A stretch of DNA of 28,067 bases. It comes from a virus. The position numbers were made by a program, and so were the translations under genes. Under the pieces are notes generated by a model. That model had not been told where the DNA came from, made no database searches, and worked only from the letters and a program-made list of their open reading frames with translations. Positions 2,394 through 15,674 of the stretch are shown piece by piece; positions within the stretch are counted from its first letter, which is position 1; the number at the start of each line of letters is the position of its first letter. The stretch covers positions 1 through 28,067 of the IMG/VR virus record IMGVR_UViG_3300031673_000372. One strand, 5' to 3'.

Positions 2394-4439
2394 TTATTTA
2401 TAGAAATCTTCTTTTTTCTCAACTGTGAAATCCTTGGCAAGCCTTAGACCATCATCATACAATCTGCAATGTTCCCAATCCGTCCCAATTTCCCATCCGT
2501 ATAAATCCAATCTTCCCATCCGATTTTTTGCTACTCCAATTTTTGCTCTGTTCCGACTTCTGTAATAATCGTCCTGATAAATCCATAACATTACAACACA
2601 ATTCTGTTCCACTCCTGATGATTCTTGCAAGTCTGACATAATGTAATACGGGTCACTTCTCTTTTCTGCTTTCTCCCTTCCCATCCTGCTTATCTGATGA
2701 GGCACTATGACCCACAAGTTTTTTTGTGTTGCTAATATCTTTGCCCTTCTCATTATCTCTTTTATTCTTACCCTGTAACTCTCATAGTTTTTATCAGGAT
2801 CAACTAACTCCAAATAATCAATTATTAAAATATCTAATTTTGTATGCGATTGTATCTTATCTATTTCCATATCTAATATATCCATCGAAAATTTTCCCTC
2901 TGGTTGTTGTATATATAAATTCCTATAACTGCCCATTTTCTCAACAACCTTTTTGTAATCCTCAAACTCAACCGCATCTAATTGCCGTCTCCTGATTCTG
3001 TTTAATGTCAAATTACTAAATCCCATATCATAAGCAATCCTTGCCTGAAATATATGCTCCATCTCTTCATCATCCATTTCCAATGTAACAACCAAAACAT
3101 TATCACCATTCAGTATTGCATTATAAGCAAGTTCTTTTGATAATTGCGTTTTTCCATCGGATGTATTATGCACAACAAAATCATTAGCAATAAAATTATT
3201 ATACTTTGGAATAGATAAATCATAACATTGATTTTTACCTTCATGTTTTATGCTTGTTATTCTATCCCACATTATATCACCCTCTGTTTTTAATTTCTTT
3301 TTTATCGGCATAGGTAATTTTCTCGGTATTGCAATATAATCACCTATTTTTAAATCCTTAATTTTTTTCCATCCATTTAATGTATAAAATGGATGATTCA
3401 TTGATACAGATATTTCATTTCCTATATTTGTTTTAACATTATATGTATCAAGTAATCCAGTATCAAGCCATGATGATACTTTCTGTTTTGATAATTTATA
3501 ATCATCTTTCATAGAAATAACATAAGGCATTTTTTTCTTTACAAATTCTTCAATAGGAACATAACTTCCGTTTCCATTTAAAATCAATGTTCCTTCTTTC
3601 AAACAATAACCTCCGATTATCCATGTTTCACCTCTCCATCCACCTCCCGTTAAATCATTCAATCGTGCACTGAATGTTTCATAACTATAATTATTCGGTC
3701 TCAAATATTTATCAATAGCAAACTTACTCCTTTTTGCTAAACTTATCGGCTTACCCTTATCCGTTACATTCATAAAATTATGTAAATACTTTGTTAATGT
3801 TTCTTCTGCTTTTTCTATGTCTCCTTCTTTTCTTGATTTTACTGCATTTAATATTTCCTTATCAAACATCCTATATTTTTCTTCTTGTATTAAATATTTT
3901 ATTGCACTTTTAAACTCATCATCTGTTATAACCCTCCTGCAATGCAATACCATTTCATAACATACCTCAACCGTTCCTTTCCAATCAACTGGTATTTTAT
4001 TTGTCTCTGCTAATCGTTGTCTAAATTCCTTATCAGATAAAAATATGCCGTCCTGTATATATGCTATTTCATATAATGCGTAAATATACCGGAAATGTTT
4101 CACCCTTAAATATTTATTCTTGATATAATTAAAACTATCAATTAAAAAATCCTTTCTTGTTATAACTCCATGTAAAAATATCTTTTGATAATACCATATA
4201 TCACCTTCATCAATCTTTTCCTCCAATGCCTTTAATGTCTCAATTATTTCCTTCTCTTTAAATTTAGGAAATGTAATATCCTCTGGTGGCTGTGGGTCAA
4301 AATTCTCTCCACTATTAAAAAATATATCCGTATCATATTTATACTTTTCACACTCTTCTAAACTTGGTTCATATCCTGCTTCCAATTCTCCATTCTCTCT
4401 TTTTGCACTCCAATAATATTCTTTGCCTTTTATTGCCAT
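2394..4439 (-). CDS. DnaB-like replicative helicase interrupted by an intein in the P-loop
   Basis: The 681-aa precursor would splice to a 534-aa helicase. The C-terminal RecA-like domain has a Walker A motif GYTSDGKT formed only after splicing (G277-Y278 joined to T426-T431). It also has VTLEM (451-455), Walker B LDILIIDYLEL (535-545), and DLQESSGVEQ (603-612), which matches the DnaB LRESG-IEQ motif. KNRMGRLDLYGWEIG near 638-652 completes the core. DnaB-family hexamers unwind the replication fork. The N-terminal 260 residues do not resemble the canonical DnaB N-domain strongly and may bind a phage-specific loader. A modest AAGGG precedes the ATG. It is the last gene of its operon, before a strong terminator. 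Confidence 0.9.
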   Translation of the reverse strand: MAIKGKEYYWSAKRENGELEAGYEPSLEECEKYKYDTDIFFNSGENFDPQPPEDITFPKFKEKEIIETLKALEEKIDEGDIWYYQKIFLHGVITRKDFLIDSFNYIKNKYLRVKHFRYIYALYEIAYIQDGIFLSDKEFRQRLAETNKIPVDWKGTVEVCYEMVLHCRRVITDDEFKSAIKYLIQEEKYRMFDKEILNAVKSRKEGDIEKAEETLTKYLHNFMNVTDKGKPISLAKRSKFAIDKYLRPNNYSYETFSARLNDLTGGGWRGETWIIGGYCLKEGTLILNGNGSYVPIEEFVKKKMPYVISMKDDYKLSKQKVSSWLDTGLLDTYNVKTNIGNEISVSMNHPFYTLNGWKKIKDLKIGDYIAIPRKLPMPIKKKLKTEGDIMWDRITSIKHEGKNQCYDLSIPKYNNFIANDFVVHNTSDGKTQLSKELAYNAILNGDNVLVVTLEMDDEEMEHIFQARIAYDMGFSNLTLNRIRRRQLDAVEFEDYKKVVEKMGSYRNLYIQQPEGKFSMDILDMEIDKIQSHTKLDILIIDYLELVDPDKNYESYRVRIKEIMRRAKILATQKNLWVIVPHQISRMGREKAEKRSDPYYIMSDLQESSGVEQNCVVMLWIYQDDYYRSRNRAKIGVAKNRMGRLDLYGWEIGTDWEHCRLYDDGLRLAKDFTVEKKEDFYK
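3165..3605 (-). other. Mini-intein (147 aa) in the helicase Walker A motif
   Basis: Residues 279-425 of the helicase precursor form an intein. It begins with Cys279 (block A, CLKEGTLILNGNGSYVPIEE), has a block B-like VSMNHPFYTLNGW with His349, and ends with block F/G, CYDLSIPKYNNFIAND followed by VVHN (His424-Asn425). The first downstream extein residue is Thr426. All expected splicing residues are present. There is no room for a homing endonuclease between block B and block F, so it is a mini-intein. Until spliced, the P-loop is split and the helicase should not bind ATP. Confidence 0.92.
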
Positions 4440-10949: not shown

Positions 10950-13900
10950 CTAATTAAAATGTAACACGCATCTTGCCAATACATGCGTCCCTGCACCACC
11001 TGCGGCAACACTTTCAACACAATGTCCTATTTCTGCAAAGTGGGTTTGATTTATTGGTTGAGGTGCACTCGCATTTGTTGCATCAGCATATCCAGCTTCA
11101 GTTATTGATGTCCTTGCCCAATTTCCTCTTGTTGCTCCTGTATTGTCCTCCAATGCCACATCTCCAATTCCAGATACAACAACCCACGCTTCAGCACCAT
11201 CAGCTATACCACTATCCAAAAATATCCCGATAACTTCCAAATCATCTGCGGCAGTTAAAATTACCGCATCATTGTTTGCAGTATCAGGTTTTACTAATTG
11301 CCCTGCAACCGTTACTGCTCCTGTTTTATTTGTAAGTTTTATTGCTAATCCACCTATTGTTGTAATTTTAAATTTTTGTGCACCAGCGCTACTAAATATA
11401 TGCCCCCCTAAACCAACATCATATTCTCCGTCTGTTTGATTATGTGTAAAACTAATCCATTCGGTTGTACTTTGATTAGCAGAATGTATAAAAAAAGTAG
11501 GATTAGGTTGCGCAGTATGTGCAAAATCAAACAATCTATCTGCAATTTCCACCAATAATAAACTTCTTGATGTTGCATCAATACCAAATATACAGGCATG
11601 ATTTGTTTGAGCAGTACCCCACATAATACCAGAATCATTACCATCTCCAAATATAGCCAAATCATTATCACCCATCCATATACCGGCATAGAATAAAGCT
11701 TGTGAATCAAAATGAGCATTTCCATCAACCTCTAATTTTCCTGCTATCAATAAATCATTATCAGCCGTTAATCCATGACCTGATGCTCCTGCTGAACCTA
11801 TTCTGATATATGTGCTGTTGCCTGTTATGTATCCTAAATTCGTTATGTAATTACCGTTAAGATCAATATAAGCACTCAGATTTAATTTTGTTGAATTTAA
11901 TGACATTTTCGTAGCATTATTTACGTACCAATTCATTTGATTAATAGAAAAATCATACCAAAAAGCACCAATAAAGCTATCTGTCTCATGTCCCCAACTT
12001 AAACCATGATATGTGTTTGCACTATTACCAATAAATGTAAAAAATGAAGTTCCGTTATGTTCAATTATAATACTGGAATTTGCATCATGTCCTGCCGGAT
12101 TCACTGCCGTTCTTGTTAAATGTACTTGTGCTATCGGAGTTAATTCGTTTATTCCTAATTTATACGTACCAGTTATAATAGTATTCCCACCCATAAATAC
12201 ACCTGCTGTTGCCGTTATGTTCATCGTATTTGCAAGTGTCGCATGAGTTCCGCCATATAGCTGGAATCTCGCACCTGAATTGTAAGCGTTACCACCTGAT
12301 ATGTAGAAAAAACTTGTATCAACTGTTTTGCAAAATGTTCCAAATGTCATTCTAATATGATCACCTGACGCATCAAGATAATATGTATTTCCCACATAAA
12401 CACGAGAAGTATTTTGTAAATAATTCCCACCAAAATCAACATTGCTATCAAAAAATACCAATCCATCTACCTCTAATTTTCCTGCTATCAATAAATCATT
12501 ATCAGCCGTTAATCCATGACCTGATGCTCCTGCTGAACCTATTCTGACAAATGTACTGTTGCCTGTTATATATCCTAAATTCGTTATATTTTTTCCATTT
12601 GCATTAAAATCCGCTCCATTATGAAATATCTGTGACCATACTGCCGCTGTTGATGTTTCATCTGCACATATATAAAAATATTTTGTTACGGTATCAAACC
12701 AAAATGTTATTCCAGTTCTCATATTATCACCAATATCATCATTTACTGTTGGCGCTGAATTTTTTAAATTTACCAATGTTCCAAAGGTATTATGCAATCC
12801 AGAAGCATCAGTGAGTGTTGCCCAATCACAATTCACAAAAACATTTCTTTGTGCCGCCGCTGATAATGAAATTGTAGCAAAAGTACAATTAGTAAATTTA
12901 TTATCATCACCTGCAACTGTTAATGTTCCAGTTCCATTTATACCAACAAAACTATTCTGTGTTGATGTACTGTCAAGTGTTATGTTTCCAGATGCCGCAT
13001 TTTTAATTCTGATATTTGAAAATGTACTGTAATCAGCACCTGCAAGCGAGATTCCTACTGGCACTCCATCAATCAATCCCTGATCTATAACAAATCCAGT
13101 AGCACTATTATTAACAATTATTCCATAACTTGATAATGTTTCTATTGTAAAATTAGTTATTTTTATTCCATCACCAACATCTACCGTTATTCCTCTGCGT
13201 ACATTTGTTATATATATTTTATCAACAATTGAACCAATATTTGATAAATACATTCCTTCTTCTGTTTTGTTTGTTCCATCCAAATAAATATTACTGTAAA
13301 CGTTTCTAATAGGACTTGCGCCTACCCATACTTCATAAATTAAATATTCCAAATTAGAACCGGATGCAATTGTTGATACATTGAATTTATTTAAATAATT
13401 ATTCCCTGCATCTTCAAGTATAATATAATCAACAGTTGCTTTTCCACCTATCATTTTAAAGCATTCATAAGATGAATCATCATTTTTTATGTGCAACGGA
13501 GTATATGTGTTCGCATTACCGATAATTGCTATATCCCTCCAACAATTATTTGTACCAAAATCTGCGATACCTTTATGCGCATTAGCCGTACCTGTAAAAT
13601 CAAACGTCAAACTTCTGAATCTGCAATAATTAGCGTTCGTATCCAAATCAATTTTTACTTCATCGGTTGTCGGTGCAAAATAAAAATATATGCCTGACAT
13701 CAATACTTCTGATACGTTTATATCAATTAAAAAATCTCCCATATCAACACGTACACATGTTTGATCATCACCTTCTATCCCACCAAGCCCAATAAATACT
13801 TGCCCTTCTTTTGGTATAAAATCTGCTATTTCTGTTATCGTATCTCTTGATACTGTTATTATTGCTCCTGCCGATTCACCTGTCGCCGCATCACTCATTG

Positions 13901-15674
13901 TTTTATACTTCCCATATCCATTTGCATTTACTACTGCTTCTTCATTTGGGAATATCGCTCTATTTGTTCCTGTATCACTTAACTCTGCAACATGATCTGT
14001 TCCCTCTAAATGATTCCCGTAATAAATATTATTGCTTCCAATTAAATTCAATTCGTATCTATCATTATCCTTACATCTGTTCCCTGCAATTATATTTTTT
14101 TCAGAGCTTGCATCAATATGTATTCCATCATATGTTGCTGAATCAGCACTGTCATTTCCTTCGACTTCATTTTCTGTAATAATACTATGCTTTACTGTAT
14201 TAGTATATATACCATGTTTTGTGTTGAAACTCGAATCACAATTTGCAATTTTACAATAATCACTTGTTGCGATTGAAAAACCATTAAATCCATTCTGTAT
14301 TGCAGTACAAGAATCAAAGGTAATGTTTTCACTATCAACAACTTTTATCCCATCTTGATTTGTCCCTATTGCATGACAATTTTCATATACATTTCCTTTG
14401 CCCTCAAAATCATAAATTCCTTCTGTACTGCATCCAATCGCTCTGCATGATCTAAAAGTATTATAATACCCACCATTCCATAATCCAATTACAGAATGTT
14501 GTATAATTACATTGTCAAATAAATTCTGCGCTGACATATTAACAAGATTAATTCCAACTCCATGTATATCTTTTATCAATAAATTCCTAAAAGTACATTG
14601 AGCGGAATGTGCTAAGTATAATGCTGTGCAATTTATACTGTTTTCTTGAAAGATAACATTTTCAATATAAGACCTTATAGCTCTTGACCAGTACATATTA
14701 TAACCGGGAGTATCAGTATTATTTTTCATTGTAACATTTTTAATTACAATATTGTCTGCCATATCACCTGCAAAATAATTTAATCCTGCTCTTGTTTTGC
14801 CTCTATATGTTTCTATTATTGTTAAATGAGTACCATCTGATACGGAATCAATTCTATATATTTCTCCTTCTATAACAATCCAATGATTATTTAATGCTGA
14901 AGTCCAAGCCGTCCCATTTCCTGTTATAGTAGTACTTGCATTTGTTAATGTTACTGTTCCTGCTTCAACAATCGCACCTGATATATCGGGAAATATTTTC
15001 CCAACTCCATTGAAATCAATAATAACACCCTCTGCACTTTCACCTATAAAATTCTGCCCATCTTTAATAACAATATCCCCAAGCGATTCTACATACGTTC
15101 CATTCCTGACAAAAAATGTTATATCTGATGCTTCCGTTGCCGCCGCCACTTGCCAACTTGTATAATCACCATCACCTCCTGCATCAATTGTTTTATCATA
15201 TAGTGTTTGTCCTGTTCCAACTCCTTCAATATATTCTCTAACCTGAATATATAAAGTATTCGTGTCTGCTTTAGTAAATCCAACCTCAACAATTTTATTC
15301 GCACCTACTGGTTTTGTTATTGTTATTCCACCTGCTACTGCTTCCGATAAATAATATCTGCTGTTCGCTGTTAATCCCCATCCTGCTTTTGTTATCTTGC
15401 CAACATATCTAAAAAATCTTTCCTCATCCGTTACTCCACTCTCTGTTAAAAATCCAACCACATGAGCCGTTCCTGCCGCATCTGCTTTTGCTTTTTTAAC
15501 TTTACTTGTCGCAAAATCAAAATAAAACACTTCTCCTTCAGTCCCATTTACACCCAATGTCAATTTATATGTTCTACCATTTTCAATGTTATCCATATCA
15601 TCATTGAAAGATTCATTTGCATTATAAGAACCTTCTGTTAAATATTCCAAATTCATATCAGTAGTCATTGTCAT
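10950..15674 (-). CDS. Large tail fibre / receptor-binding protein with beta-helix domains
   Basis: The 1574-aa protein begins with a ~150-residue N-terminal region that probably attaches to the tail. Residues ~150-590 are a right-handed parallel beta-helix of the pectate-lyase/NosD type, with recurring turns such as IIAGNRCKDND and NIYYGNHLEG. A second helix-like region covers ~610-960. The rest is fibre modules that include a duplicated ~42-residue unit (ITNLGYITGNST...). A C-terminal domain ends in VLARCVLHFN, typical of phage fibre tips. It should bind or degrade a surface glycan, though no catalytic residues are identifiable. The ATG at 15674 has AAAAGGAG. A GC-rich structured element sits in its leader. 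Confidence 0.88.
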   Translation of the reverse strand: MTMTTDMNLEYLTEGSYNANESFNDDMDNIENGRTYKLTLGVNGTEGEVFYFDFATSKVKKAKADAAGTAHVVGFLTESGVTDEERFFRYVGKITKAGWGLTANSRYYLSEAVAGGITITKPVGANKIVEVGFTKADTNTLYIQVREYIEGVGTGQTLYDKTIDAGGDGDYTSWQVAAATEASDITFFVRNGTYVESLGDIVIKDGQNFIGESAEGVIIDFNGVGKIFPDISGAIVEAGTVTLTNASTTITGNGTAWTSALNNHWIVIEGEIYRIDSVSDGTHLTIIETYRGKTRAGLNYFAGDMADNIVIKNVTMKNNTDTPGYNMYWSRAIRSYIENVIFQENSINCTALYLAHSAQCTFRNLLIKDIHGVGINLVNMSAQNLFDNVIIQHSVIGLWNGGYYNTFRSCRAIGCSTEGIYDFEGKGNVYENCHAIGTNQDGIKVVDSENITFDSCTAIQNGFNGFSIATSDYCKIANCDSSFNTKHGIYTNTVKHSIITENEVEGNDSADSATYDGIHIDASSEKNIIAGNRCKDNDRYELNLIGSNNIYYGNHLEGTDHVAELSDTGTNRAIFPNEEAVVNANGYGKYKTMSDAATGESAGAIITVSRDTITEIADFIPKEGQVFIGLGGIEGDDQTCVRVDMGDFLIDINVSEVLMSGIYFYFAPTTDEVKIDLDTNANYCRFRSLTFDFTGTANAHKGIADFGTNNCWRDIAIIGNANTYTPLHIKNDDSSYECFKMIGGKATVDYIILEDAGNNYLNKFNVSTIASGSNLEYLIYEVWVGASPIRNVYSNIYLDGTNKTEEGMYLSNIGSIVDKIYITNVRRGITVDVGDGIKITNFTIETLSSYGIIVNNSATGFVIDQGLIDGVPVGISLAGADYSTFSNIRIKNAASGNITLDSTSTQNSFVGINGTGTLTVAGDDNKFTNCTFATISLSAAAQRNVFVNCDWATLTDASGLHNTFGTLVNLKNSAPTVNDDIGDNMRTGITFWFDTVTKYFYICADETSTAAVWSQIFHNGADFNANGKNITNLGYITGNSTFVRIGSAGASGHGLTADNDLLIAGKLEVDGLVFFDSNVDFGGNYLQNTSRVYVGNTYYLDASGDHIRMTFGTFCKTVDTSFFYISGGNAYNSGARFQLYGGTHATLANTMNITATAGVFMGGNTIITGTYKLGINELTPIAQVHLTRTAVNPAGHDANSSIIIEHNGTSFFTFIGNSANTYHGLSWGHETDSFIGAFWYDFSINQMNWYVNNATKMSLNSTKLNLSAYIDLNGNYITNLGYITGNSTYIRIGSAGASGHGLTADNDLLIAGKLEVDGNAHFDSQALFYAGIWMGDNDLAIFGDGNDSGIMWGTAQTNHACIFGIDATSRSLLLVEIADRLFDFAHTAQPNPTFFIHSANQSTTEWISFTHNQTDGEYDVGLGGHIFSSAGAQKFKITTIGGLAIKLTNKTGAVTVAGQLVKPDTANNDAVILTAADDLEVIGIFLDSGIADGAEAWVVVSGIGDVALEDNTGATRGNWARTSITEAGYADATNASAPQPINQTHFAEIGHCVESVAAGGAGTHVLARCVLHFN
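11721..11846. repeat. 126-bp direct repeat in the fibre gene, copy nearer the C-terminus
   Basis: This segment matches 12462-12587 at 121 of 126 positions, counted by eye without gaps. Both copies lie in the same reading frame, 741 bp apart, and encode the same fibre module ending in SGHGLTADNDLLIAGKLEV and DG. The five differences include silent and replacement changes, so the duplication is recent or maintained by recombination. Confidence 0.92.
12462..12587. repeat. 126-bp direct repeat in the fibre gene, copy nearer the N-terminus
   Basis: Partner of 11721-11846. The coded unit differs at two or three residues near its start (TFVRIG here, TYIRIG in the other copy). Repeats in frame inside a fibre shaft can allow changes in length by recombination. 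Confidence 0.92.

Follow-up and report, generated by a model that had tools for sequence, protein, structure and literature searches.

The window is the whole of IMG/VR virus record IMGVR_UViG_3300031673_000372 (28,067 bases). Profile matches identify capsid, tail-tube, tape-measure and tail genes in it. Near one end, a frame free of stops encodes a DnaB-like replicative helicase precursor with an intein inside it (Table 1).

Table 1. Features of the helicase gene, its intein and other genes of the window
Feature	Positions	Strand	Basis
DnaB-like replicative helicase precursor with intein, 681 aa	2394..4439	-	Stop-free frame; Pfam DnaB_C; phrog_19
Walker A positions 1-2, Gly-Tyr, end of N-extein	3606..3611	-	Alignment with intein-free relatives
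Mini-intein, class 1 signature, 147 aa (precursor residues 279-425)	3165..3605	-	Pfam; fold model; PDB match
Cys1 of intein (precursor residue 279), N-terminal nucleophile	3603..3605	-	Invariant in 25 mini-inteins
Block B motif S68-M-N-H71	3393..3404	-	N70 and H71 aligned with mini-inteins
Penultimate His146 and terminal Asn147	3165..3170	-	Invariant in 25 mini-inteins
Walker A positions 3-8, Thr-Ser-Asp-Gly-Lys-Thr	3147..3164	-	Alignment with intein-free relatives; translation
C-extein, RecA-like ATPase core	2394..3164	-	DnaB_C match on joined protein; motifs read from translation
Fused SNF2/ResIII-type helicase and N6/N4 DNA methyltransferase, 733 aa	4484-6685	-	
Tail-fibre-like protein, 1574 aa, right-handed beta-helix repeats	10950-15674	-	

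The helicase gene and its intein

Outside residues 279-425, the precursor matches Pfam DnaB_C (E 2.3e-30), and it matches the DnaB-like replicative helicases of phrog_19 (E 5.8e-39). Both support the DnaB-like host named in an earlier reading of this DNA (the original prediction). The translated C-extein contains the Glu of LEM, a Walker B motif (IIDYLEL), DLQESSGVEQN in the H4 motif region and a KNR finger region. Together with Walker A, this DnaB_C RecA-like core with its Glu, Walker B and Arg finger region makes the protein a DnaB-like helicase. Residues 1-257 gave no Pfam match of any kind, and hence none to a DnaB N-terminal domain, which suggests a divergent phage form and not a cellular DnaB. 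Searches by peptide patterns and by the helicase-methyltransferase neighbour found no close relatives of the gene, just distant DnaB homologues. One sequence in the query alignment was a typed consensus and served solely to widen the search patterns.

The helicase-methyltransferase fusion that adjoins the DnaB gene is of a very common type in IMG/VR (more than 300 matches, of which the best 80 show 46-54% identity). At another locus, helicase and methyltransferase are two separate genes, likewise beside a DnaB.

Precursor residues 279-425 cover the full domain of Pfam Intein_splicing (E 2.9e-26 for the intein, 1.2e-24 in the 681-aa precursor), so that the search of Hint-type Pfam models proposed in the original prediction finds its match at 2.9e-26. 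NCBIfam adds intein_Nterm (1.1e-10) and intein_Cterm (5.5e-6). We aligned 25 mini-inteins (this one and 24 from genomes). Twelve columns of the alignment are invariant, and this intein conforms in each: C1, H71, W79, W113, D129, N137, F138, A140, N141, V145, H146 and N147. The same alignment gives the residue set of class 1, namely C1, the block-F D129, H146, N147 and T+1. Class 3 inteins lack Cys1 and have a WCT triplet with a block-F Cys. Here Cys1 is present and the block-F position is Asp, so the signature is that of class 1; the only other Cys adjoins block F. Two residues, neither mentioned in the original prediction, depart from the usual pattern. Block B reads SxxH instead of TxxH, position 68 being Thr in most relatives, and in block F a near-invariant His is replaced by Asn (N136).

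A Pfam scan found no LAGLIDADG, HNH or other nuclease domain in the intein, whose linker is short. Nor was an endonuclease recognised in the other scanned ORFs of the record, which may be a fragment. Read from its sequence, 3165-3605 encodes a class 1 mini-intein without a homing endonuclease, which is predicted to excise itself. The original prediction had the boundaries and the 147-aa length right, as well as Cys1, the block-B His, the C-terminal His-Asn, Thr+1 and the missing homing endonuclease.

An AlphaFold model of the intein has the HINT fold (mean pLDDT 93). Its best Foldseek match in the PDB is 6frg, a variant of the Ssp DnaB intein (E 5e-14). Ssp and Npu DnaB inteins make up the top matches (E 5e-14 to 5e-13), and the class 3 MchDnaB-1 intein ranks below them; by these matches the modelled intein is structurally nearer to the former. 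Taken together, the profile, residue and fold matches go far past what chance would produce.

The insertion point in Walker A

We number Walker A as G1xxxxG6K7T8 and mark insertion points within motifs by a slash. The intein lies between positions 2 and 3, where Thr3 takes the position of its +1 nucleophile. Removing it in silico gives WIIGGYTSDGKTQL, with Walker A restored as GYTSDGKT and a joined protein of 534 aa. The site between Gly-Tyr and Thr-Ser-Asp-Gly-Lys-Thr and the length of the joined product were both correctly foreseen. Removal raises the DnaB_C score from 106.2 to 120.9 bits, as a single match over profile positions 7-239; on the joined exteins the match has E 8.1e-35 and spans residues 258-497.

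These junctions also bear on whether the insert is an intein at all. A weak match to PT-HINT (0.011) might indicate another kind of HINT domain, and an assembly chimera would be a second way to account for the insert. Intein models far outscore PT-HINT, however, and an intact C-extein, beginning with Thr, comes directly after His-Asn. Each junction keeps the frame, excision restores an exact P-loop, and such exact junctions contradict these readings. We regard both possibilities as extremely improbable.

All 90 intein-free relatives that we fetched align straight over the junction. Position 3, which corresponds to the +1 residue, is Pro in 83 of them and Thr in three. Pro is unfit as a +1 nucleophile, so the site is open only to a less usual type of helicase.

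To place this site among known ones, we used inteins from bacterial and archaeal genomes with a readable N-junction. None of the 75 is inserted between positions 2 and 3: 55 are at RESG/S or RDSG/S (DnaB-a), nine come right after Gly-Lys (P-loop-type) and two are at SDLRE/SG in Saprospiraceae. The last two, in DnaB at SDLRE/SGAIEQD, lie two residues upstream of the DnaB-a point SDLRESG/SIEQD. Viral inteins fetched by their C-terminal motif are mostly inserted after Gly-Lys, and none of the viral inteins that we read has the 2-3 site. A strict DNA pattern for [VI][VI]HN/T..GKT, which recovers the window intein itself, found five stretches in IMG/VR, none of which is an intein once translated. 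The part of the literature that we covered yielded no report of a DnaB intein between Walker A positions 2 and 3. In published work Lys/Thr is the classic P-loop insertion: terminase sites a and b lie one residue from each other (PMC5050341), MCM-a comes after the Walker A Lys (PMC10643990), and mycobacterial DnaB intein 1 precedes the Mg2+-binding P-loop Ser (PMC6195587). The DnaB-b allele is defined by insertion right before the P-loop Ser or Thr at position 8, and the window intein lies elsewhere, between positions 2 and 3. This insertion point appears to be new, known P-loop inteins being mostly at Lys7/Thr8 or Lys7/Ser8. P-loop inteins of phage helicases as a kind are already known.

What comes nearest to an exception is a 422-aa intein in the helicase of Staphylococcus phage RSM-J51Sa, at AATN/SGKT between positions 4 and 5. 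Two candidates for the same arrangement were rejected. The profile phrog_34449 has a match spanning the junction, but in Vibrio phage 13VV501A it hits the first of two inteins, at the classic GAGK/T. Planktothrix phage PaV-LD seemed to match over both intein and helicase, but the intein there occupies the DnaB-a site. The 13VV501A helicase (gene0073) contains two mini-inteins, one at the P-loop GAGK/T and one at FQDE/CHH, apparently the DExH motif.

Two groups of DnaB inteins are close in position. The mycobacterial DnaB-b intein (Msm DnaBi1, M. leprae DnaB) is also endonuclease-free and in the P-loop of the DnaB ATPase domain, but belongs to class 3, with an internal Cys and the Mg2+-binding Ser8 as +1 residue (PMC6195587), whereas the window intein has a class 1 signature and Thr+1 at position 3. 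Cyanobacterial DnaB P-loop inteins at RPSMGK/T (five loci) share the DnaB P-loop, Cys1 and Thr+1. They differ in having a long insert in the middle, which brings their total to roughly 390-500 aa, and in lying at Lys7/Thr8, five residues beyond the window site.

Splicing and helicase activity

P-loop inteins are known in DnaB and RadA, some with regulated splicing, and are also carried by phage helicases and terminases. Among the candidates for control of DNA replication by protein splicing, they have been studied best. In the window, splicing would begin after translation with an acyl shift at Cys1, continue with transfer to Thr+1 and end with cyclization of Asn147 helped by His146. Excision would join Gly-Tyr to Thr-Ser-Asp-Gly-Lys-Thr and produce a helicase of 534 aa whose Walker A is intact. 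Before this step the ATP site would be incomplete, and helicase activity would therefore need splicing. In the precursor, 147 residues come between the first strand of the ATPase fold and the P-loop, and in P. horikoshii RadA the ATPase function is reported to be disrupted by an intein in the P-loop (PMC6195587). From these two points it can soundly be inferred that the unspliced protein would be unable to form the nucleotide site. A predicted structure of the precursor was set aside as proof of a broken ATP site, given its pTM of 0.49 and the low confidence of residues 256-277 around the loop.

Ser68 in place of the block-B Thr and Asn136 in place of the block-F His may make splicing slow or partial. 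Taken further, these two departures from consensus could mean that the intein has decayed and splices badly or not at all, in a lineage that is losing helicase function or uses a host helicase; the window is also a metagenomic fragment, from which an infectious phage is unproven. The frame is nevertheless intact over 681 codons, no invariant intein residue has been lost and the helicase retains Walker A, Walker B and its other motifs. Decay is thus very unlikely.

A signal such as redox, metal, temperature or host state might instead delay splicing, and active helicase would then be released when replication is due. We consider this unlikely. An intein of this class 1 type normally needs no help to splice, and fast, constitutive splicing is the default expectation. 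The sequence has no feature specific to regulation, and nothing that we observed favours the gating of replication suggested in the original prediction over immediate splicing. We found no related phage with an intein at the 2-3 site and hence no sign of selection for it. There are precedents for conditional splicing: Msm DnaB intein 1, in the P-loop, responds to oxidative stress (PMC6195587), zinc inhibits mycobacterial DnaB splicing (PMC7360933), and contacts between intein and extein hold P-loop RadA mini-inteins until they are warmed (PMC5790916). The Pyrococcus and Thermococcus RadA mini-inteins, like the window intein, are endonuclease-free and in the P-loop of a RecA-fold ATPase, and their splicing is regulated (PMC5790916); they differ in their host, an archaeal recombinase, and in sequence, with low similarity to the window intein (22% in the fold match). 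The position of the window intein within an active site, its lack of an endonuclease and the unusual S68 and N136 in its splicing blocks would also suit a switch. The known redox switch, however, needs the class 3 catalytic Cys, which is absent here. The fuller proposal, a new P-loop allele at the 2-3 site of phage DnaB-like helicases combined with a timing switch that awaits an infection signal, is quite unlikely.

To most readers this will be one more phage intein. As a phage class 1 mini-intein elsewhere in the same loop, it tests whether the Lys/Thr position matters for precursor inactivity and regulation, against the alternative that P-loops are hit simply for being conserved. It suggests, too, that an intein can take hold a few codons off its usual site if the local residue permits, here Thr for Pro.

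Relatives and origin of the intein

In a plain database ranking, DnaB-a inteins look nearest to the window intein. Those of Ssp, Npu and Planktothrix phage PaV-LD have the same fold and give the best matches in the PDB and among annotated phages (32-39% identity). Unlike the window intein, they lie in the SDLRESG/SIEQD motif, far from the P-loop, and have Ser+1. We compared splicing domains after cutting out endonuclease regions. The best matches then include a P-loop intein of Patescibacteria DnaX at GTGK/T, which is 42% identical to the window intein (73% for the final 40 aa), a phage intein of 147 residues at EHGK/T (42%) and a P-loop intein of a phage primase-helicase at NTGK/T (40%). All three have Thr+1. 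Descent from DnaB-a inteins, to which the first PDB and phage matches pointed, was dropped because the trimmed P-loop inteins with Thr+1 score higher. P-loop inteins with Thr+1 are the nearest relatives, with moderate support from the tree.

The primase-helicase and DnaX inteins, whose splicing domains are the closest (40-42%), share the P-loop and Thr+1 with the window intein. They differ in length (about 430 aa, with room for an endonuclease), in their Lys/Thr site and in their host proteins. The primase-helicase intein (429 aa, in IMGVR_UViG_3300033064_003457) is the closest viral relative in the tree, which joins the two with support 90/84, the bootstrap not being settled. An earlier tree without viral inteins left the window intein unplaced.

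The best explanation of the whole is very probably a self-splicing class 1 mini-intein, endonuclease-free and a remnant of a P-loop lineage, in a divergent phage DnaB-like helicase. The lineage was probably one of phage and bacterial Thr+1 inteins that bore an endonuclease, since lost, and invaded P-loops. Its entry point would be five residues upstream of Lys/Thr, the usual one, a shift made possible by the Thr that this helicase has in place of the Pro of canonical DnaB. The intein probably persists by inheritance, since its loss must be exact. Simple inheritance explains its persistence equally well as, or better than, gating of replication.

Base composition gives a further view of origin. 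At 25% G+C, the intein is lower than any stretch of 147 codons in eight other genes of the window, where the mean is 33%. At third positions its G+C is within the ordinary range, 12% of stretches being equally low, and the low overall value may come from a composition rich in Lys, Asn and Ile rather than from foreign origin.
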